From contig NC_049989.1 of NCBI RefSeq assembly GCF_000003815.2, positions 20,136,168-20,200,167 of the forward strand: a stretch of 64,000 nt of DNA, read 5' to 3'. Below, piece after piece: positions 4,319 to 58,944 of this stretch. Position numbers and translations under genes: made by a program. The notes under the pieces are model-generated. The model had not been told where the DNA came from. It saw only the letters and a program-made list of their open reading frames with translations, and ran no database searches. The stretch comes from Branchiostoma floridae. Its lineage: Eukaryota; Chordata; Leptocardii; Amphioxiformes; Branchiostomatidae. Every line of letters starts with the position of its first letter. The first letter of the stretch is position 1.

Positions 4319-5717
4319 TTTGGCTGCGGAAGAAAAGTCTCAAATCTGTTTCTCAGCCACCCAGGACTTTGGACAGCCGCGTGCATTAGACAATTACAGA
4401 CAACGCACCTGTCGTCCGTCCGGTTGGTTTACTTCAAAGTAAAAAGAAGACAAAGGAGACTTTTAACGGTGGTACTGGTATTGAATTTTTAACAGTTGTG
4501 TCAGAACACAGCTAACTCACGGTGTCACAACTCATCGGCCACCATTATAGTGGTATCGCTTTTTATTCTGGTTCTCTGAACTATAATTTACATTCCAGTG
4601 GAGGAGCGATTCCAATATCTAGAAGTCTTGACCAAAAGTACCATTGTCACTGGACAAACGAACTAAGTTAAACTTAAAACTCTAAACTTAATGTTCATGT
4701 ATTTTCCAACGCCAGTGACACGAGCAGCCTCCTGTTCAGGGGTGCCTAAGCATTTGCACGAACCCTATGAAATTCGTACGAATATTATGTGATACACATG
4801 AATCACCATGCGAAAACGCACGAATATTATGAAATTCGCACGAATCACTATGTGATTCACACGAGCCTTATGAGATTTGCACGATCCTTATGCAAAAACG
4901 GCGGCCGGGAGGAGGTATGATTTTGAGCGTTTCTACCCATGATATTTATATTTCAAGGCATGGAATGGGCATTTACCGTCGCAAAGATGTATTTGATAGC
5001 CTATGAGTTACTGTTTTGCTTCATTTCGGCGTGTTACATCGTATTTCCGTCGCCGCCGATCGAAGCCGCCATCTTGAAAATCCCGCTCCGTCTGTCACGT
5101 GACCCCGGCAGTGGTTGCGCAATTTCGCATAAGGATCGTGCAAATCTCATAAGGTTCGTGTGAATCACATAGTGATTCGTGCGAATTTCATGATATTCGT
5201 GCGTTTTTGCATAGTGATTCGTGTGTATCACATAATATTCGTACGAATTTCATAGGGTTCGTGCAAATGCTTAGGCACCCCTGCTGTTGCCGGTTAAAAA
5301 CCTTTTTTTTTAAGGAACCACTGTTACTGGACAAACGAACAAACTTAAAACTATAAACTTAAGGTTCATGTATTTTCCAACGACAGTGACTCGAGCAGTC
5401 TCGTGTTGCCGGTTGAAAACCTTTTTTTTTCAAAAGTACCACTGTCACTGGACAAACGAAGAAATTTAAAACTCTAAACTTAAGGTTAATGTATTTTCCA
5501 ACGACAGTGACTCGAGCAGTCTCGTGTTGCCGGTTGAAAACCTTTTTTTTTTTCAAAAGTACCACTGTCACTGGACAAACGAACAAACTTAAAACTATAA
5601 ACTTTTTTAAACGTTCATGTATTTTCCACCGCCAGTAACACGAGTAACCTCCTGCCACTGGTTGATAAACTATTTTTCCAAAAAATAACACTGTCAAAGG
5701 ACAAACAAACATAAGGT
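4319..5717. other. Region between the two oxygenase genes
   Basis: No gene is seen here. It holds the 5' flank of copy 1, then an exon-tail tandem array (about 4630-5720) interrupted by a 546-bp MITE (4737-5282). Promoter elements could not be picked out with confidence. Confidence 0.7.
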
Positions 5718-12879: not shown

Positions 12880-13085
12880 TAGTCTCTACCAGACTCCAGA
12901 TCGCTGGAAAAATCGTAGAAATGGAACAAATAGAGGAGTAAGCCGGCCAGAGGAATATAACCGGCCAGGGAACAGCACGCGATCTACGGATCCTAGGATC
13001 GCGAGCTGTTCCCTGGCTGGTTATATTCCTCTCTATTTGTTCCATTTCTACGATTTTCCAGCGATCCAGAGTCTGGTAGAGACTA
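12880..13085. mobile_element. Large palindromic MITE
   Basis: Outer ends TAGTCTCTACCAGACTC and GAGTCTGGTAGAGACTA are exact complements, and the arms continue through GATCGCTGGAAAAATCGTAG, TGGAACAAATAGAG and the CCGGCCAG/CTGGCTGG blocks to a CGATC.ACGGATC centre. Same family as 2472-2556. Confidence 0.8.
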
Positions 13086-13481
13086 GCAGATGTCATCCAT
13101 ATGACTAAATCAACAATTGGCTTTATCTCAAAAAATTTGATAGGCATTCAGGGCTCTAGCCAGCTCGACACTTTTTTCCGTCAGCCAATTCCCATTGTCG
13201 CGAAAACACTATTTCAGGAGATAGAGAGACTGAACTGAGACCTTGAAAAACGTGTTTTAATGAGATTATGGTGTGCGAAAGGGCACCGACACACATTGTC
13301 AACAATCATAACAATAGCAAAACAAACAGTGTGTGGCTTTTAAGGCCGCGGACGGCGTCCCCAAGCAGCCTGTAGCTTCCACCAAGGAGGTTTTATCAGA
13401 TTTTTGTCAGTCAAAGTTGACGGATTGGTTTTAAAATTTCCGTCAATTGATGGAAAAACGCTGGCTAAAGCGCTGTAGGCA

Positions 13482-16400
13482 TTACTGAAAGGCATCCCAG
13501 AACATCTGTTTTGCCGCCTGCATGTCGACTTTCTTCACTATCCTGATATTTGGTTCCTTCTTCCAGATTCCTCGGTAGTCGCACACCATCTGACCCCGCG
13601 TGACCTCCCCGCGTAGCTCCACCGTGGCGTAGACGTCTTCCGACTCGAGAACGATGTCGGGACGTGCTGCGACCATCAGCGCGAACGGATCGCAGGAGTG
13701 ATAGAAGTCGGAGAACACTTTCTGGGCTTTCTCGCGTGCAACGCCTTTGGCGAGGATCGAGGCGTGGAACTTTCCGCGCTCCGTGGGGATGGCCATGATC
13801 TTGTCCCACTCATCCTAGGATGAAGGAAAAAGAGGAAAATTAAGGAAAATGAAAATAAAATAAAGGAAAATTGAAATAAAAACTGACAGGATTTAGCCTG
13901 GGTACCATACCATTGAGGCGCTCGAGTTGCTCTTCGGCGGTGTAGGGGTGGCCGCCCGTGCATTTAATTGGTACAGGCCCAGGGAGTTCTTACGGGGTTA
14001 GGTTAATTTTGTCGCGCCCCAACGTTAACTCCAAAGGCTGGCTACAAGCTCTGGCGGCCAAATCTCAAAGGGCAGCTAATCAGACAGGCTGACAGATGCA
14101 GGTCGGTGCCTTAGCACTGGGCCGGGTAAAGCACCCCAAAGCCGACCAGCGGAGAATGGTACCCAGGCTAACAGGATTGGGTCTATGGGGAAATAATTTT
14201 AGAGACCACCTTTTAACAACAAGTGGCTACAATGGCCAATGCCAAGGACTGGGCCACTAATACACCATTCTCGTGCCATGGCCATGACATGTCAATGAGG
14301 CAAACAAAAGACTGTCCATCATAAATAGCAGTTCAACCAATGATAGCATGGCAATTAGGAAAGCGACCAATAAGAGAGTGGCTGCATGCATGTTTTTATT
14401 TTGTATCTCTTAATGGACTATGGGACCAGTCTAGGCTACATCTTTCAGTGCATAACACTTAATATATCTTTATCTATTGTTTGATCTAATATAATTGTGA
14501 AAACTTGTGTGAATTGGGGGAAAACTAAATGGAGCTGATTTTGATAGATAAATTTTGTCTGCTTGCTCATTGCATGACCTCGTTTTAGATTTATCATAGC
14601 TGCTGTGTGAGAAAGGGGTATACAGGTTTGGCTGCACAATACAGGAAGACATATACATCTTTCCAACACTGTAATAACTGTAGGGACTTACCGCTAAATT
14701 TCCGGTCAATCTCCGTCGACCTTGTTCACAGAATGACCCTTTCTATTTCCAGCAGTGACGTCAGGAAAGTATCAGAAAGTCTATGTTGCCCCCCCTCCTG
14801 CAAAAGTGGTGTCTTCCTGACATCATGCTGCTGGAGATAGAAAGGGTCCTTCTGTAAACAAGGTCGACTACTAAGTGTTACTAGGGTTACTAGTGTTGGA
14901 AGGAAAGTTTAACAATTTTTCTATAATGTATTCTACCAACACAGATGAACTTTCATGCTACATATACATCATGCTATACATCTACTTACATATGGTATTG
15001 CCATTGCATCAATGCAAGGTTCCCAGGGCACAATGTGAATACTTAGACCCTGGAAGCTGTTTAGAACCATGTTTGCTGCCTCAGGGTCGCAGGAGAAGTT
15101 AAACTCTGCTGAGGGGGTTATATTCCCAATCCCTGCAGGAAAACAGGAACACATGATTTTAAACTTTCATGTGGTTTGGTTTGGTTTGGTTATACAGATC
15201 TCCATTAGTGACTAATGTCACTATTCTTCCTGGAGTCCGGGTGATTTGTAGAGAATCATCAACTCTAGACAGAAGGATTTGCACCAACACATACCACACC
15301 ATCGCACGTGTGTGGGTTCTTTAACGTGCCTGGGGTATGGCTCTCCCCAAACACGGGACCTCCATTCAACGTCCTATCCGAGGGACGGCCCTAGCCGAAG
15401 CTAAGTACTCATTTTCACCTGAGTAAAGTGAGGAAAGTCGTGTAAAGTGCCTTTCCCAAGGGCACAAGATCGGCAGCACGGCAGCTGAATTCAAACCCGA
15501 GACCTCTCAGTCCCGAGCAGAACGCGCTACCTCTGCGCTATGCGGTCCCCGCAGGGGAATTTTTTTAGCCCCAGATTTACATGTATACCACTTATGGAGT
15601 AGGACAGCAGGGTGAAGGTAACAATATAAAAACTGGAGCGAACTTTTTGAGCTGGAACAGTTCCCTTCCCTGTGAAAGTGAAGAAAAGAAGAAAGGAGAA
15701 GGATCATGAAGATGTTTTGTCCATTGCACTGCAACCTGCCTGTAAACTTTAGCCATGTTTTAAATTGATAGATGATTTATTCATTGTTGCAGTGACCTAA
15801 AAAGGAAAAAAAGTCTTAATGGGATACAATTTTTGGATCCGTCTGTGGTCCTGTTTTCCTGCTATTTATACTGCCCTCTTTAGATCTGACTAACATGTAA
15901 GAACTGATCAGCAAGCAAAGTTTTTTTTTTACTAATTAAAAATATTCCTAGAAAGAAGAAAGTGTTCTGTTATAATCAGTTTGTGGTCACAACCATTTGA
16001 TATCAAACTTGTAAACAAAGTTTTTTTATAGCTACTTTGTCCTGTATCAAATCAGATTCATGTGTCCTCCTGACATACCCATGAAATGCCACAGTGAGCG
16101 CTGAAGCGACAAATCTCGTACGGTAAGTCTGTAACGGGACACGTAAAGCTGTGCAGGACCATGTGAGCCGCCTCGCTGTCGTACGCAAAGTTGAACTCTG
16201 CCGTTGGCGTCACACGTCCTCTGGCTTATTCAGTCAAGAAAAGGAGAGGAGATGTAGTAAAGTGAAATTCCATGATATCTTCATGTGCAGGGTTGGACAT
16301 TAGTCCGCTACCCAGATTGTCCTGGGCAAGCAGGGCTCGAAATACTGGGTGCATGTGCGCCCAGGTGCACCCAAAATTGGAACTGTGCACCCAATTTTTT

Positions 16401-19400
16401 TCAGTGGGTGCACAGGGTGCATCTAAATATTTTCTTAGGTTTATGTATGGAAAGATATTGAGTATACTAGTATACATCATATTCTTGACAAGTGTTAGAA
16501 AGATAATAAAAATGTCTGTCATGTTACTTGTTTAACTTAAGAATTTGATAGCTTATAACTAAGTTTTGTTATTTGACATTTTACTTAAATTTAAGTGGTG
16601 CACCCAAAAATTTTTTGGTGCACCCAATCTTTTCAGCTGGGTGCACCAGTGCACCTAATCCCAAAAATGAATTTCGAGCCTGGGCAAGTGAAAGCATATT
16701 GGGCGAGTGCATGTCCTACCCTACTCATCAGTCATCACTAATCTACATCTTCATGTATGAGTGAGATTTTGATGTACAAATGTACTTGTTACTTTTTGCA
16801 ATCATGGAATCCAGCATTGGTTGACACAGAAAAATGGTGCTTATGATAAAAGAATTTTATAGTTGGAAGTGAAAATGCATAGAAATTTAAAATGTTTTTA
16901 AAATGAAGAGTTGGTTTGGGCAAATAAATTTTTTACGTACTTGCCTGATAGGACAAGTGAATTTTAGAAAAGTTGTCCAACCCTGATGTGAAATGATCCT
17001 AGAATACTTATTAAAACTTACTTAATAAACAGGTAAAGATAGACAGATAAAATATTATATAAAGAGTACATTTAAGAATGATCTAAACTAAGTCAGATAT
17101 GCAGGGTCTTTGTATGATTTTGTTCTGTGTATAATCTAGAAGAAGACCTTTATTGTGTGTATATGTCCACTGGTTTCAGTACAGGTCACAACAAAAATAA
17201 TAGTTTACAGATAGGTACAATGTAAATCTATCACTAGAACTACAATCTACTATAAGTCCGAATGACAAAATCAACTGACAATTAACAATTAACAAAATCA
17301 ATCTTTTGAGTGGACTGGCCTGCCCCTTGCCATCAGCCAGGCGCTCAGCCCGCCAGACCAGGCACATGACAGGGGGAAATGGAGGGGGTCAGGGGGAGGG
17401 AGTTCTCTTCCGGAGCTGCGCACAGAAAGTGCCCGGTGCCTACCCTTAGCCTCTTCATTGATAATAATTTTTTTCCATGGGCAAATTTTGATCACAAAGG
17501 TCGAGATTTCTGCAAGAGGGACTGAAGCATGTATATTTTTAAAATCTTGCCAAAAATTGTGACCTTTGGCATGCTTTGACCTGTGGGTGACCTTCATATT
17601 TAATTGGGAGACATGGACTGATCCATTAGGAGAGGGGGTGAAATCCTGACATCATGACAATCATCTGGCTGTAGCTCGTTAAAACGCCGGAGTTGAACTC
17701 GGGCTTTTTCAACCAAAACAAACCTGACAAATCCAGCTTTGCAGTGGGGGTAAAAACTTGAGGTTTGAAATGTAGGTAATTGTGTTTTTAAGTGATTGTT
17801 TGGCATGGCTTAACCATGTAGGGAATGGGCAATTCGGTTTAGCAGCCCCTCCCCTCAGAGCAAAGCACCCCCAAGACCAGCCCCGGTCAAGGGACCGGTA
17901 AGCAGTAATCTTCTGGGACATTTGTCAAGGTTAGATATCAAGTTCCACAATGTTTCAACTTAAGGCAATTCAATCTGTACAATTGGACAAATATTTACTT
18001 CTGGATGTTTTGAGTGACATCCATCACTTAATTGTAATCATCACTAGAATGAAGTGGCAGGATAAATTATTCTAATACTAGTACACCTAACCGGGTAAGA
18101 CCAGTCCTATGGATAAACTGTGACTCATGGACCATACCATTGATGTTTCCCCCCATGATGACCAGCTCCTTCAGCCGTGCAGGGAATTCTGGGTCCATCC
18201 TAACAGCCAGGGCGAGGTTGGTGAGCGGCGCCACGGCAACAAGGGTGATCTCACCTGGAGTGGGAGATGTGACGTTACAATCAGTTCATTCATCAATCAA
18301 TCAATTAATCAATCAATCAATCAATTGATCAATTAATGCATTGATCAAATAATACAATGATCAAAACACCAATCACTTGTCAGTGCACTTATTGATAAAA
18401 AATAGCTGAGGGTTGAACTGTCTTGTACATATGCTTGTTGCACTTGGTGTATCTAACTGGGATGCTTCGAACGGTACCTCCCTACCTATCACACATGTTC
18501 TCGTGGATGCCTCCGCCAGTTCTGAGAGTGAGAAGGCGTTCTGCATTGAAGCTCTTCACAAGTTGGGACCCCCACTTACTACACATACCCCAGAGTAATG
18601 TGCAGTCGTTTAAAGGCAGCATACAACACTACGGTCCGACTCTCTGGAATGAACTTACCTTAGAGCAGAGGCGTTCCAGTAGTTTAAAGGAGTTCAAAGG
18701 ACTGATTCTGAACAAGGACTGATTTTAATCTAGTGAACTTTCCCATAGTTAAGAACTTATGTTGTATCATGCATTGTTGTTATTTTGTGACCATGTATAT
18801 GCTATTTATGTCGGAGTGAAGTTTGATGTACCAGGGTCTCCTGAAAATCAGGGCGCCCGCCCTGAGTGACCACACCTGACTAAATAAAGAAATGAAATGA
18901 AATGAAATGAAACATCTACCTTCATTCAGAGNNNNNNNNNNNNNNNNNNNNNNNNNNNNNNNNNNNNNNNNNNNNNNNNNNNNNNNNNNNNNNNNNNNNN
19001 NNNNNNNNNNNNNNNNNNNNNNNNNNNNNNNNNNNNNNNNNNNNNNNNNNNNNNNNNNNNNNNNNNNNNNNNNNNNNNNNNNNNNNNNNNNCAGAAATCA
19101 GCTCACTGGGAGCTGTTTTATATGTGTACAAAGAATTTAAGCATACAGTTTCACAATGTGCTTTCCTGTGAACTGTCAGCGCTTGAGTTAAAAGTAGTCA
19201 TTTTACAAGGACTATGTGTATGCAAGATATGATTCCTTTGCACAAAATAGATCTTTTTTTGTAGTACAGAACTGAACTGTAGAATCTGTGCGAACAGACA
19301 CAAGAATAAATACACGAACCTGGGTGCTCTTTGGACAGCCTCAGTAGGGCAGTGACTGCATGTTCAGACTGTACCAACTCCATTCCGGGGGGGTCAGGGT

Positions 19401-22400
19401 CGGGGACGTCCCCCATGCCGTCCTGCCCGTGCCAGTACCGCGCGTCCACGTGATTACCCAGGATGGGAACATCTGCTCCTCTGAACACAGGCACCTGGCA
19501 GAAAAAAAAAATAGGTAGGGCTTTTTTTTTAAAGAGGGGAAGAAGGGTGCGGTGCCATGGGTCCCTTACCATGGGGAGCATATATGGCATTGCTCTTTAT
19601 ATTGGGAACCACAGATACAAACATACATGCATCCACACACACAGACACACATACAAACACACAGACACGCACAATGACAGAAAAAAAAACACACACACAG
19701 TCACATACATGTACTTACAAACTCACATTCATTCACACACACACACACACACAAGTACATGTATACACAAACACAGTTCTACTTAGTCTAGTACATACTT
19801 GTATGGTAATACTAATACATCAGAGTAGTAGAGGTACTTACATCGAGTCTCCCGAACACCTTGAGAACCCTGAGGGCGTTCCTACACACCTGGTCCACAC
19901 CGACGTTACCTGCCACACAGGTGATCCCCAGCACCTGGACATTTGTAATGATCTCACCTTAGTTTACAAGTGGTTATAATCAATGTATATCAACATTGCA
20001 GCTAATTATATATCTAATGTATGACTTAATGTAAATTTAACCTTGTCTTCAATGTTTTCATGTATTTCCCATTTATTTACAATTGTAAATACATGGGAAA
20101 TTAAGCTTATAAGTTATAGTATTACATCATACATATTTTTGGTTAACACATACAATAATCAGGACTGTGTGGGCTGCTTCCTTGATATTGTGTACAGTAA
20201 CTTTAGTGGCTGGGGATAGGGAGTAGCTCACAGCCATCGATTCTAGCACTGAGAACAATGTTTTTCTAGTTAGCCTCTGAGTGATGATGGAATGTCAGCG
20301 GTTGACTGGTGTCCACTAAAGTCATTTAAGTCAAAAGGTACAGTCAGCAAATCAAGAATTGCAGTATTAGTACATCTGTGTATATGTTTGACAAGGCTGG
20401 CATATTGTGGGCACCTGCTATAGCAGCAAAGTTGCCTGCATTACCACTATGTAATATTGTTTTATTTAAATATTCACAATCACTAATACAAAAAGACACA
20501 TACCTGAACATTTGGGCGTGTGAGAGCCAGCATGATTGCCTGAGCATCATCACATCCACAGTCCACATCCAGGACCATCAGCTTCTTATTCTGTGTGCTG
20601 CTGCTGGCCATGGTCTGGTTATGGCGAGATACCTACAACAAGTNNNNNNNNNNNNNNNNNNNNNNNNNNNNNNNNNNNNNNNNNNNNNNNNNNNNNNNNN
20701 NNNNNNNNNNNNNNNNNNNNNNNNNNNNNNNNNNNNNNNNNNNTTGGTTGGGCTGCCTACTCTCTCATCACAGCCAGGGGCCGAATTGGGAGGAGCTTAC
20801 AACACGCAGGGCTAAATTGCAAGGGTCTGGAGCGAGCTGCCATTTGGTACCACTCAGATGACCTAAATACAACATTACAACAATAAATGCCCCAGGTGCA
20901 GTCATACACTTTTCTCACGCGGCGGCCATGATACATCTAAAACGAGTTCAATGAGGCAAACAAAAGACTGTCCATCATATTTAACAGTTCAACCAATGAT
21001 AGCATGGAAATTAGAAAATTGACCAATAAGAGACTGGCTGCATGTCCGTCAAATATTTGCATTATTATGTTTTTATTTTGCATCTCTTAGGGGAGCTATG
21101 GGATCAGTACGCGAGTCTAAATTGCTACATATTTCGCTGCATTACACTAGTTATAATATTTATTATTTGATCTTATAACGTAAAAAATGGTGTGGTCTGG
21201 GGAAAAACTAAATGGGAGCAGTTTTGTCTGTTTGCCTCATTGACCTCGTCTTTAATCTATCATGGCCGCCGCGTGAGAAAGGTGTATAGGACTGTAGGGT
21301 TGAACCACTCACACTGGAAGGACCCCTACTCTTTTCGATAAGTGTACGTGGTGGGATCTAGTTTCATGCTCAAGGTGTGGCTCTCCTTAAAGTTAAACAC
21401 AGGACCTGCATTTAGCTTCCTATTCGAGGGACAGGCCTAACCGAAGCTAGGCACTCATTTACACCTGCGTAAAGTGCCATTTCCAAGAGCACAAGATCAG
21501 TTAAATGCAGTATCAGCAGATTTATATTACAATTTGAACCCAGGACCTCTGGAGTATGGTCCAAACACTCTACTGCTGTGCCACATGCATGATCCCACTA
21601 AAGCCAGCGAAAGATTTAAAAAAAAATGGACAAATGTGACTTGCTCACCTATTAGGCTATATGATCAAACAATCACACAATGAGCACAATCCTGGTGGTT
21701 TGTTTACTCTGTAACTACTGGACACCAAACTTGGGCAGGACTGCACACAGCTCAACTCAGACTCCTTGACTACGTTAAGCCCTTCATGCCCTGGGCTATC
21801 ATCCTTTGCTATCTCCCTGTAGTGCCTGATCCCCAATGCAGATAAAGTCAGGCAGGTGGCTTGTAGCACTTACAGCAGTCATGGAAATTAAAGACCAAAT
21901 GCAGCAGTGGTCACAGTAACTAATGCCATTTGACCTATATTGTGAGTGTTGTAATTGGTAGAGTGATCGGCTTGGAACCTAGAGGTCCCGGGTTCGATAC
22001 TCGCTGTGTCATGACGTTGTGCCCTTGGGAAACTTTTCCTGGCAGTGGGGTGATGCCAGGCTTTTAGCTAGGATTTTTTCATAGGGTGTCCAAATTTCTT
22101 GCCATTAGGCGAGTGCTACAGGCGCGAGTATTGTAGGGGGTCTGGGGACATCCTCACTTAGAAAATTTTGAAATTTATAACTCTCTGAAACATCATTTCC
22201 CACATTTTGGGGTGCAAATTTGGGGGAATGAAGCAAATTTACTGTAAGACAGGCCACATGTGACCTGCAGCATCCCTGGTCAATCAGAATTTCATGCTTG
22301 TCATAGGATCTGCTCCCCAGTGTAAGGGTGTACAATTTGTGTTATTTTTTTAACAGGGTGTACATATTGTGTGTACATATGTGGGACCGCGTGGCACGAT

Positions 22401-23316
22401 CGGGAGCGCGTTGGTCTCAGGCCCGAGAGGTCCGGGGTTCAAATCCGCTTGCCGTGTCACCGATCTTGTGCCCTTGGGAAAGGCACTTTACACGACTTTC
22501 CTCACCTAACTCAGGTGTAAATGAGTACATAGCTGCGGCTAGTGGCAGTGACAGGCCTTTGTGGTGGTGACAGGCCATAGGGGCATGTTCGGGCATGACG
22601 CACCCGCCATGACACATGAGTCAGGGGTAGGAGGAACCCCTTGCATCCTTGGTCGGAAGTCCTCCTAGGAGACGGAAACTCCAAACAACAAACCTGCATC
22701 TGCTGGGGCCGTCTTACATGTTGCATACAGTTGCCCCTGTAGGACTAGTGCGCCAGTGGACGAGAGGGTGGAGAAGGAAGTGCACACCCCTCCTTCACCT
22801 TAAAAACCCAAGTGCAGGCTAGGCAGACGGGTCGCCTTAAACCCATCCGCCTACCAATTGTCTTCCGAGACAGACGGATGCCAACATATTGTACACCCTT
22901 ACACCTACTTGGCTAAAAGCCTGGGTGATGCCCATCAAGCTTCTTAAGGCAAATCAAAACTTACATTTGTTATCATCATTCTAAGATTTCGTCCTTCTAT
23001 TTTGGCTGGGTTAGTTAGCCTTGAATACATATTTCTTAACGAAGGTATCACCTCTTAGTATACGTAAGTTCATGAAAGGAAACGTTAATGCCTTCTACTA
23101 GTACTAGTGCTATATCTAAACCTTTGATCTACCGTAAAACTAAGGTAAGACAATTATTTAAACTTAGTTCAACTTTACCTGAGAAACCCGCTGTGTAACT
23201 AGTCTTCTGAGGATGCTCTGGTTTCTTCTCAGGTACTGCTGCCTGATGTAAAGTCCGGACAGAACTTTCCACAGTCTACCAGCGTTTCGGGTGATCAACA
23301 AATGTTGTAAAACCAT
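13482..23316 (-). CDS. Inosine-uridine preferring nucleoside hydrolase with alternative exon pair and N-terminal leader exon
   Basis: Hydrolyses the N-glycosidic bond of ribonucleosides (family role). Exons: 23316-23179 (leader), 20632-20504, 19934-19842, 19494-19320, 18254-18138, then either 16224-16079 (A) or 15132-14990 (B), then 13814-13482. Internal initiation at the ATG at 20611 gives 322 (B) or 323 (A) residues, the usual family length; the leader exon would give 375 or 376. The N-terminal DVDCGCDDA motif is the Ca2+/ribose-binding D-x-D-x-x-x-D-D signature, with Pro replaced by Cys. [12 protein letters not shown] and the MGGN stretch, then EFNF in both alternative exons, are further family motifs. 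All junctions keep frame. An N gap (20644-20743) adjoins the exon 2 acceptor, so the polypyrimidine tract there cannot be judged. Confidence 0.9.
13893..14171. mobile_element. MITE with TTAGCCTGGGTACC ends
   Basis: Begins TTAGCCTGGGTACC and ends GGTACCCAGGCTAA, an exact inverted pair, in the last intron of the nucleoside hydrolase gene. Confidence 0.75.
14265..14620. mobile_element. MITE family copy 1 (CTCACGCGGCGGCCATG type)
   Basis: Shares the interior (TCAATGAGGCAAACAAAAGA, AACCAATGATAGCATGG, ACCAATAAGAGA.TGGCTGCATG) with 20905-21287, but its terminal repeats are more decayed. Confidence 0.6.
14715..14868. mobile_element. Hairpin MITE, GTCGACCTTGTT type
   Basis: GTCGACCTTGTTCACAGAA and the 3' TTCTGTAAACAAGGTCGAC pair, as do the inner CCCTTTCTAT / ATAGAAAGGG blocks. 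Confidence 0.7.
14990..15132 (-). CDS. Nucleoside hydrolase alternative exon B (143 nt)
   Basis: Acceptor TCCTGCAG with a pyrimidine tract and donor TAT/GTAAGT. Joined to the preceding exon it reads [17 protein letters not shown] and ends in [14 protein letters not shown], then continues [11 protein letters not shown] in the last exon. It is homologous to exon A. Its length is 2 modulo 3, starting in phase 1 and ending in phase 0. Confidence 0.85.
15237..15550 (-). mobile_element. tRNA-derived SINE between the alternative exons
   Basis: On the minus strand a tRNA-like head (GGGACCGCATAGCGCAGAGG, A-box-like; GGTCTCGGGTTTGAATTC, B-box-like) is followed by a body with CTTGTGCCCTTGGGAAAGGC and ending near the conserved CGTTAAAGAACCCACAC. 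The same body occurs near 22455, 21370 and 63140. Confidence 0.75.
16079..16224 (-). CDS. Nucleoside hydrolase alternative exon A (146 nt)
   Basis: Reads [17 protein letters not shown] through [16 protein letters not shown], then DEWDKIM. It matches exon B at 17 of the first 27 residues, including the EFNF and EAA motifs. The donor is TGG/GTATGT; the acceptor AATAAG is preceded by a good pyrimidine tract. A CAG four bases downstream would break the frame, so use of the AAG is required for a functional product. Confidence 0.75.
16288..16990. mobile_element. Outer MITE, CAGGGTTGGACA ends, hosting another MITE
   Basis: Starts CAGGGTTGGACATTAGT at about 16289 and ends AGTTGTCCAACCCTG at about 16985, with ATGTG repeated outside both ends. 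It is interrupted by the element at 16331-16680. Confidence 0.65.
16323..16688. mobile_element. hAT-type MITE nested in the outer element
   Basis: The body 16331-16680 begins CAGGGCTCGAAAT and ends ATTTCGAGCC, with an exact 8-bp direct repeat TGGGCAAG on both sides (16323-16330, 16681-16688). Internal GGTGCACCCAA motifs are repeated in both orientations. An 8-bp target duplication with a CAGGG terminus is typical of hAT elements. Confidence 0.75.
17125..17420 (-). mobile_element. Probable LINE 3' end
   Basis: On the minus strand the segment ends CAATAAAGGTCTTCTTCTAG, a non-LTR retrotransposon style 3' terminus with a polyadenylation signal. No reverse transcriptase motif is preserved. Confidence 0.35.
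18415..18912 (+). mobile_element. Non-LTR retrotransposon 3' fragment
   Basis: A reading frame at 18423-18722 ends with [19 protein letters not shown] and [15 protein letters not shown], the W-N-x-L-P-like tail with following FK..L common at the C-terminus of LINE reverse transcriptases. It is followed by a 3' region ending in repeated AAATG units before the assembly gap. 5' truncated and inactive. Confidence 0.65.
18932..19091. other. Assembly gap (160 N)
   Basis: Run of N in an intron of the nucleoside hydrolase gene. Confidence 1.
20644..20743. other. Assembly gap (100 N)
   Basis: Run of N directly upstream (in transcript sense) of the acceptor of nucleoside hydrolase exon 2. Confidence 1.
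20905..21287. mobile_element. MITE family copy 2 (CTCACGCGGCGGCCATG type)
   Basis: Ends TACACTTTTCTCACGCGG and CCGCGTGAGAAAGGTGTA are inverted repeats, continuing into GCGGCCATGAT / ATCATGGCCGC. The interior matches the copy at 14265-14620. Confidence 0.75.
21330..21610 (-). mobile_element. Diverged tRNA-derived SINE
   Basis: Minus strand carries GGTCCTGGGTTCAAATTG (B-box-like) and body sequence similar to the SINE at 15237-15550, more decayed. Confidence 0.55.
22049..22931. mobile_element. hAT-type non-autonomous element inserted in a SINE
   Basis: The body 22057-22923 starts CAGGCTTTTAGC and ends GCTAAAAGCCTG, flanked by the exact 8-bp duplication GGTGATGC (22049-22056, 22924-22931). It contains a further SINE at about 22374-22735. 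Confidence 0.8.
22374..22735 (+). mobile_element. tRNA-derived SINE nested inside the hAT-type element
   Basis: Carries a tRNA-like head (TGGGACCGCGTGGCACGATC; GGTCCGGGGTTCAAATCC) and the shared body GATCTTGTGCCCTTGGGAAA. Innermost layer of a three-level nest. Confidence 0.75.
23179..23316 (-). CDS. Upstream leader exon of nucleoside hydrolase (46 codons)
   Basis: ATG at 23316 is directly preceded by an in-frame TAA. The 46 codons ([19 protein letters not shown]...) contain eight Arg, one Lys and no Asp or Glu, then a CAG/GTAAAG donor in phase 0. The acceptor TTGTTGTAG before 20632 continues in frame as [12 protein letters not shown]. This composition fits a mitochondrial targeting peptide. 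The 2.5-kb intron includes an assembly gap, so the join is inferred. Confidence 0.6.
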
Positions 23317-57159: not shown

Positions 57160-58944
57160 ATGGAAGCGACTGAAGTTGAGCATCTGAAGGCACTGGGGGA
57201 GACCAGCTGTCCTGAAACTAACAACGGAAGGACAGGAGAGGAACAACTGAAGACTCACAGTGGAGAGAAACCACACCAAGGACCTTCTAGTTCTACATCA
57301 AGGAGGCGTGACCTGAAACGGGGTCATGCACCAGGTAAAAGTGAAAGTGGGAAGAAGCGTAAGAGACACAGCTGTCCGTATTGTGAGTATGAAACAGACA
57401 TTAAAAAGACGATGACTTTGCACATCAGGACCCACACTGGTGAGAGACCGTATAAGTGTCAGCAATGCGACTACTCAGCAGCACAGCGGGGAACCCTGAA
57501 ACAGCACGTGCAGGCTGTGCACACCGGTGTGAGACCGTATCAGTGTCAACAGTGCGACTATTCTGCAGCACAGAAGGGTAGACTGAACCAGCACGTGAAA
57601 GCTGTGCACTCCGGTGAGAGACCTTACCGCTGTGGCCACTGCGACTACTCAGCAGTCCAAAAGGATGCTTTAAAAAGACACGTGGCCAAACACACAGGTG
57701 AAGGAAAAACTAAAGTTAGAAAGGAGCGGAAGAAACACAGATGCCCACACTGCGAGTATGAAACAATAAGAAAAGAGTCGATGACAGTTCACATCAGGAC
57801 CCACACTGGTGAGAGACCGTATCAGTGTCAACATTGCCACTATTCTGCCGCACAAAAAACTCAAATTGCAAGACACATCCAGAGTAAACACACCGGTGAG
57901 AGACCTTACCAGTGCGGCTACTGCGACTTCTCTGCATCAAGGAAAGACGGCCTCATCGTGCACATCCGGACGATACACGGCGGGGAGAGACCCTACCAGT
58001 GCAAGTTTTGTGAGTATTCAGCACAACAGTCCGGTCACCTGAAAGAGCACGTCATGGCCAAACACAGCAACAACAGGCCGCACAAGTGCACCAAGTGCGA
58101 CTTTTCGTCGGTAACCAAAAAATCGTTAAAGCGGCATATTATGACTAATCATACCGGTGAGAAACCTTACAGCTGTGAGTTGTGCAGCTATGCAGCCAGT
58201 GAAAAGAGTCTGTTAAAGCTGCACATGGCTAAACACACCGGGGAGAAACCTTTTAAATGCAAAGTCTGTGATTATTCTACTGCAGCAAAGTCATGTTTGA
58301 AATCTCACTCGGTCACACACACCGGAGAGAAGCCGTACAAATGCAAATTTTGTGATTATTGTGCAGTATCAATGTCTTATTTGAAAAGCCATATGGCCAA
58401 CCACGCCAAGGAGAAACCCTTCCACTGTGAACACTGTGGCTTCTCCACAGCGCGAAAAGAAATTCTGAGGGGACACGTGGCCACACACAATGTTGAGAAA
58501 CCATATAGATGCGAGCTTTGTAATTTTTCTACAAATCATAAGCACGACTTGAAGCGGCACATAGCCACGCACACCGGCGAGAAGCCATACAACTGTGATA
58601 TATGTGGCTATGCGACGTCACAAAAACACTACCTCAGGGACCACATGACAAAGCACACCGGTGAGAAGCCTTACCAATGTGAGCAATGCGGCTATTTCAC
58701 AGCCCAAAAAGCAAGATTGGCGAATCACATGAAAACACACACCGGTGAGAAGCCGCACAAGTGTGAGGTTTGTGATTATGCTGCAGCAGTGAAGGGTACA
58801 TTGAGGCAGCACATGGCCACACACGCTGTGGTGAAGCCGCACAAGTGTGACCAGTGCGACTACTCTGGAACGCTGAAGGCTCATCTAAAGAGACACGTCA
58901 AGACCAAACATGCCAAGGAGAAAAACGAGAGTGTAGCTGCCTAA
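57160..58944 (+). CDS. C2H2 zinc-finger protein, 18 fingers
   Basis: A 594-residue protein in one coding exon; the ATG is preceded by an in-frame TAG six bases upstream. After an acidic then Lys/Arg-rich N-terminus of about 70 residues (GKKRKRHSC reads as a nuclear signal), 18 C-x2-C-x12-H-x3-4-H fingers fill the rest, mostly with TGEKPY/TGERPY linkers. Fingers mostly begin C-x-x-C-[DE]-[YF]-S. Fingers 1-4 and 5-8 look like a block duplication: 1 and 5 share C-P-x-C-E-Y-E-T, and finger 5 is preceded by a long basic linker (GEGKTKVRKERKKHRC). No KRAB, SCAN or BTB domain. A nuclear, DNA-binding role is expected; no orthologue can be named. A possible ATTAAA signal is at 59672. Confidence 0.9.
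   Translation: MEATEVEHLKALGETSCPETNNGRTGEEQLKTHSGEKPHQGPSSSTSRRRDLKRGHAPGKSESGKKRKRHSCPYCEYETDIKKTMTLHIRTHTGERPYKCQQCDYSAAQRGTLKQHVQAVHTGVRPYQCQQCDYSAAQKGRLNQHVKAVHSGERPYRCGHCDYSAVQKDALKRHVAKHTGEGKTKVRKERKKHRCPHCEYETIRKESMTVHIRTHTGERPYQCQHCHYSAAQKTQIARHIQSKHTGERPYQCGYCDFSASRKDGLIVHIRTIHGGERPYQCKFCEYSAQQSGHLKEHVMAKHSNNRPHKCTKCDFSSVTKKSLKRHIMTNHTGEKPYSCELCSYAASEKSLLKLHMAKHTGEKPFKCKVCDYSTAAKSCLKSHSVTHTGEKPYKCKFCDYCAVSMSYLKSHMANHAKEKPFHCEHCGFSTARKEILRGHVATHNVEKPYRCELCNFSTNHKHDLKRHIATHTGEKPYNCDICGYATSQKHYLRDHMTKHTGEKPYQCEQCGYFTAQKARLANHMKTHTGEKPHKCEVCDYAAAVKGTLRQHMATHAVVKPHKCDQCDYSGTLKAHLKRHVKTKHAKEKNESVAA

Follow-up and report, generated by a model that had tools for sequence, protein, structure and literature searches.

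Two homologous exons in tandem, A and B, form a real pair in a gene for a nucleoside hydrolase (PF01156) that has seven coding exons on the minus strand of the window, and they are probably used in a mutually exclusive way. The window is the whole stretch of DNA analysed (64,000 nucleotides, C11:20136168-20200167). The best explanation, held here at a probability of about 0.6, would be the production of two isoforms by exclusive use of A or B, with an RNA stem masking exon B and with decay of the transcripts that carry both exons. Exon pairs of this kind are known; what is new in this case is the replacement of a ribose-binding Asn by Arg, together with a candidate acceptor-masking stem. It is unusual for mutually exclusive splicing to swap part of the catalytic region of a small metabolic enzyme. 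The isoforms differ in one segment only, of 48 or 49 residues, and a defined substrate-binding residue is affected, which makes the effect of splicing on chemistry testable; the stem offers a single-element test of how the exon choice is made.

Gene layout and the exon pair

The coding sequence was completed by exon 1, which was added in the present analysis and has a 100-N gap (20644-20743) directly upstream of it. The coding exons are as follows.

20611-20504, minus strand: exon 1, with the start codon and the metal-binding motif DVDCGCDD, followed by a GT donor
19934-19842, minus strand: exon 2
19494-19320, minus strand: exon 3
18254-18138, minus strand: exon 4, upstream neighbour common to A and B, ending in phase 1
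16224-16079, minus strand: exon A, 146 nt, AAG acceptor, Arg at the RihA Asn158 position
15132-14990, minus strand: exon B, 143 nt, TGCAG acceptor, Asn at the RihA Asn158 position
13814-13482, minus strand: last coding exon, downstream neighbour common to A and B, with HSCDP containing the last metal-binding Asp

When the two isoforms were scored against PF01156 with exon 1 left out, 260.8 bits (isoform A) and 271.2 bits (isoform B) were obtained (curated cut-off 34.2). Asp residues at RihA positions 10, 14, 15 and 241 are present in both isoforms and are encoded by shared exons; the calcium ligands of RihA include Asp 10, 15 and 241, according to the available part of the structural report (PMC2898832). 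Group III hydrolases (metazoan, Cys-type) are recognized by a Cys immediately before the last metal-binding Asp, as given in the accessible sections of a review (PMC8910321). The present gene has this Cys directly before the last metal-binding Asp when the HSCDP stretch is read from the sequence, and in the automatic alignment the RihA His240 column holds the His of that stretch and not the Cys. The metal-binding Asp residues and EFN are likewise shared with Group III, but exon A differs in having Arg in place of the O5'-binding Asn, and those sections mention no alternative form of the segment (PMC8910321). By its sequence, isoform A is a member of the nucleoside hydrolase family by descent. 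Four NCBIfam equivalog models were found per isoform, every score being below its cut-off.

As had been claimed in the original prediction, exons A and B are 146 and 143 nt long, have GT-AG borders, start in phase 1 and end in phase 0, and each is splice-compatible with the same flanking exons (18254-18138 and 13814-13482). Both carry the EFNF and D-x-E-A-A motifs described there (DSEAA in A, DPEAA in B). Their homology exceeds chance: 21 of 47 aligned residues are identical, and each exon peptide alone, scored with a few flanking residues, passes PF01156 (37.3 bits for A and 48.1 bits for B; cut-off 34.2). With just one of the two exons included, the frame runs through to the normal stop and a full-length protein results (323 aa with A, 322 aa with B).

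It had also been proposed that the gene structure enforces a choice between the exons. For the reading frame this holds, as inclusion of both exons leads to a premature stop after 217 aa and omission of both to one after 165 aa. The frame-breaking CAG named in the prediction does exist 4 nt inside exon A, and its use would give a stop after 167 aa. For transcript decay, however, the outcome differs between the two kinds of misspliced product. As a rule, stops well upstream of the last exon junction lead to nonsense-mediated decay. The A+B stop lies 128 nt upstream of that junction and the stop of A spliced through its internal CAG 131 nt before it, and the double-skip stop lies just downstream of it. 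Double inclusion should therefore result in nonsense-mediated decay, whereas the double-skip transcript should escape junction-dependent decay (unless the 3' untranslated region has an intron). A mutually exclusive pair backed by the reading frame, as first proposed, is the best reading.

Steric exclusion is not favoured, the A-B intron being 946 nt long. Nor is an incompatibility of U2 and U12 sites, as the borders are GT-AG and no U12-like donor was seen by eye. A haplotype or assembly artefact was ruled out: the DNA of A and B is 54 % identical and no second gene copy was found among the matches.

The pair resembles those of a human survey that describes mutually exclusive exons whose lengths are not multiples of three (PMC5740500): in both, the exons are in tandem, share phases and neighbours, and break the frame when included jointly. 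Unlike the human pairs, the present one lies in a nucleoside hydrolase gene and is known from sequence alone. Among the papers covered by a literature search, none joined nucleoside hydrolase with mutually exclusive exons and none joined nucleoside hydrolase with amphioxus. Papers retrieved for nucleoside hydrolase with alternative splicing and isoform concern other subjects, judging by titles and abstract openings, and those on mutually exclusive exons or splicing in amphioxus or Branchiostoma concern other genes, judging by the titles listed.

The whole genome (513 Mb, 431 contigs) was searched with PF01156, and at least 17 exon-level matches in at least four genes were observed (the present gene, one on C1 and two on C14); these gene and exon counts are lower bounds, as the search scores best candidates only. 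A genome search with the exon A peptide (E up to 10) returned exon A itself and four related exons. The other three genes (C1 and two on C14) have a single exon of 146, 137 and 137 nt, respectively, at the place of A and B, with borders placed by eye at AG and GT. Each of these lengths is 2 modulo 3, and each exon has an open frame when read from phase 1 to phase 0; among the five related exons every length difference is a multiple of three. Given this single exon of like length class and phase in the C1 and C14 genes, the exon boundary is inherited, and a second copy was seen in the present gene only, through gain here or loss elsewhere. No relative of exon B was found in the viral contigs searched (19 pattern matches).

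Compared with the C1 paralogue, 23 of 47 residues are identical in exon A, 26 of 48 in exon B (25 of 48 in a second alignment) and 167 of 274 in the shared gene body. Exon A is thus almost as similar to the C1 exon as exon B, which speaks for a functional exon A. The exon tree (13 rows, 50 columns; L017, L020 and 8db6 were dropped beforehand, and seven of 20 bacterial loci were in the alignment) rejected neither an A+B clade (p-AU 0.38) nor A+C1 (p-AU 0.22). The best tree has B+C1 with support of 60/0, and a codon model prefers A and B as sisters by about 2.9 log units.

In the case of the C1 paralogue (L031, C1:17656500-17664500), the last exon near 5385-5714 reads HTFDP, with Phe in place of Cys or His directly before the last metal-binding Asp, and Leu occupies the RihA His82 position. 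Because of these two residues, its leaving-group chemistry may differ. The two C14 genes (L029 and L030, C14:5096000-5114500) are arranged head to head on opposite strands about 6 kb apart, and in the exon that corresponds to A and B they are identical at 41 of 46 residues.

Active-site residues in the exchanged segment

In the RihA structure paper, Asn158 and Glu164 are described as binding ribose O5', Asp10 and Asn166 as binding the attacking water, and Ala78, Val81, Phe165, Phe223 and Lys228 as the contacts of the base mimic (PMC2898832). The E. coli K-12 RihA sequence has N158, E164, F165 and N166. When the isoforms were aligned to it, the E-F-N of both fell on RihA 164-166, and position 158 was Asn in isoform B and Arg in isoform A. 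This is the clear active-site difference between the isoforms, and it had not been named in the original prediction. Asn is found at this position in 47 of 50 distinct bacterial relatives (Glu in one, Pro in one, gap in one), and the Pro of DPEAA, which is Ser in exon A, is kept in 49 of the 50 (one gap); this sample (52 loci aligned) is narrow, being nearly all actinobacterial. Position 158 is also Asn in the C1 exon, both C14 exons, 3t8i, 3t8j, 8db6 and 5mj7, the last of which we take to be the C. elegans enzyme described in the Group III review.

The exchange would thus most directly alter the hold on the sugar end of the substrate, judging from the position of the Asn to Arg change. Isoform B looks canonical, and isoform A may be altered, dead or regulatory. 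A different nucleoside preference of the two isoforms had been suggested, and this part of the prediction is weakly supported. In its favour, a model of URH1p with nicotinamide riboside places Asn165 near the nicotinamide (PMC11241417); RihC N162 is placed in the ribose cavity (PMC10778931); by their spacing from the E-x-N motif, both residues are presumably the equivalents of RihA Asn158. Against it, four of the five RihA base contacts lie in shared exons. The only one encoded by the exchanged exons, Phe165, is the same residue in A and B, and a switch of base preference is accordingly not favoured as the main effect. A change in base preference is possible, but is not indicated by the other base contacts.

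Candidate stem at the exon B acceptor

An inverted repeat search of 13815-18137 returned four pairs, one of which links the acceptor tract of exon B to an element in the A-B intron. The predicted arms are as follows.

15844-15862, minus strand: upstream arm of the predicted stem, in the A-B intron
15135-15153, minus strand: downstream arm of the predicted stem, in the polypyrimidine tract of the exon B acceptor

The arms are 690 nt apart and complementary at 18 of 19 positions (duplex -31.5 kcal/mol), and the best pairing in 300 dinucleotide shuffles of the intron was 15 of 19. When pre-mRNA of 1.1 to 1.6 kb was folded, pairing probabilities were at least 0.86 for the first 14 of the 19 pairs and about 0.2 for the last four. 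The B acceptor tract had an unpaired probability of 0.07-0.08, which rose to 0.31 after a single shuffle of the arm. Corresponding values of 0.25-0.49 were obtained at five other acceptors in the gene (stretches of N were treated as A in two of these contexts), where at most 12-13 of 19 bases are complementary. Among repeats of at least 18 nt, one long-range stem falls on the exon pair, with no competing second pairing. A scan for intron-intron duplexes, in which the best real duplex beat all four shuffles in two of three intron pairs, used shuffles at a coarser step that kept base composition alone, and nothing was drawn from it.

The fold suggests an acceptor-masking stem which, if real, would favour exon A when formed. 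The prediction would resemble docker-selector control, as the accessible part of that report describes it, in that complementary intronic elements lie beside alternative exons (PMC6071210). It differs in that a single stem was found, placed on the acceptor tract itself, which would mask exon B.

The stem could instead be a chance inverted repeat, with the exon choice left to ordinary splicing factors and to the relative strength of the splice sites; we put this at somewhat short of even odds, and it competes with the stem part of the best explanation and not with the exon pair, which would be real in either case. Such repeats are not rare, as inverted repeats of comparable quality within 1 kb form 26 clusters in the window. 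They cover 1770 of 64000 bases (2.8 %), so that an arm would fall on a given acceptor by chance at a few percent, a figure to be read with more than one splice site having been examined for stem arms. Against a chance repeat, one arm sits exactly on the B acceptor tract, and the arms do not belong to a repeat family: across the genome the arm pattern is matched exactly at the two arms and nowhere else, and the 181-base stretch around the upstream arm has one genome match, itself, and is thus single copy. With one mismatch allowed, three further places were found, compared to two for a reversed control pattern.

In the best explanation, pairing of the B acceptor tract with the upstream intron element would hide exon B, and exon A would then be joined to the last exon. 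If the stem is open or passed over, B with its CAG acceptor would compete with A and its AAG acceptor, and transcripts containing both exons would be removed by nonsense-mediated decay. Isoform B would be the canonical enzyme. Isoform A, which keeps the metal ligands and the EFN residues and has Arg for the O5' Asn, would bind the sugar end differently and might be weakly active, specialised or a regulatory subunit. What speaks against two isoforms is that the acceptor of A is AAG and has a CAG competing with it 4 nt further on. In a far more speculative version, to which we assign very little probability, the stem would switch the gene between a normal hydrolase (B) and an isoform A whose Arg reads 5'-phosphorylated ribosides, such as nucleotides or related compounds, and not nucleosides. 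If that were true, splicing would decide whether the active site recognizes one end of its substrate or the other.

Between the stem arms, at about 15170-15550 of the window (minus strand), a tRNA-like or SINE-like stretch ending in AACCAAACC-type repeats was noted by eye. An ARAGORN scan of 13000-23000 detected no tRNA gene, and a search of Rfam gave no match. The intron after exon B contains a hairpin at 14715-14868 (41 nt, 93 % complementary, 72 nt between the arms), which is perhaps a relic of a small mobile element.

Constraint on exon A

The codons of A and B differ at third positions in 30 of 47 cases, at first positions in 18 of 47 and at second positions in 17 of 47, a pattern that favours a functional exon A. 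A branch codon model of five sequences was fitted on three topologies. Neutrality of the A branch (omega_A = 1) was not rejected (LRT 0.08, 0.69 and 0.69), whereas neutrality was rejected for B (LRT 5.43, 5.77 and 5.74; p about 0.02). The codon tests show constraint on B and are compatible with decay of exon A. Among the residues invariant in the other four exons, 5 of 19 are changed in A, 2 of 16 in B and 1 of 15 in the C1 exon. With the C1 exon as reference, six paralogue residues are kept by A and lost by B and nine are kept by B and lost by A; with the C14a exon these counts are four and five.

We consider the chance that exon A is a working coding exon to be about two in three. The alternative that it is a decaying relic of the duplicate, with its function lost and B alone in use, is unlikely in our view, although several observations point that way in addition to the branch test: A has lost Asn158 and the Pro of DPEAA, has Tyr in place of the Trp of PWE, scores below B against PF01156 and has an acceptor other than CAG. 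A relic, however, would be expected to carry 8.8 to 10.2 changes at the 19 invariant residues if neutral, compared to the five observed (P 0.06 and 0.015 for two fitted rates), and A retains residues that B has lost (alignment columns 32 and 51). Its frame and splice-site letters are also intact, with no frame-breaking indel, a state that survived in 0.2 to 14 % of runs when an A branch as long as the fitted one was simulated as neutral; this range is set mainly by the assumed indel rate (0.1 to 0 per substitution), the upper end corresponding to no indels. A recent loss of function of exon A is possible. The main role of exon A could also be that of a poison exon, in which case its inclusion alongside B or the use of its CAG would lower the amount of enzyme through nonsense-mediated decay. 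The positions of the A+B and A-via-CAG stops, where decay is expected, agree with such a role, but a poison exon has no need of an EFN motif, correct phases or a family score above the curated cut-off, and we regard it as improbable. Production of two isoforms is preferred to both.

Elsewhere in the window, a weak tblastn match (E 0.44) at 58276-58461 corresponds to a C2H2 zinc-finger-like reading frame (HTGEKPYK).
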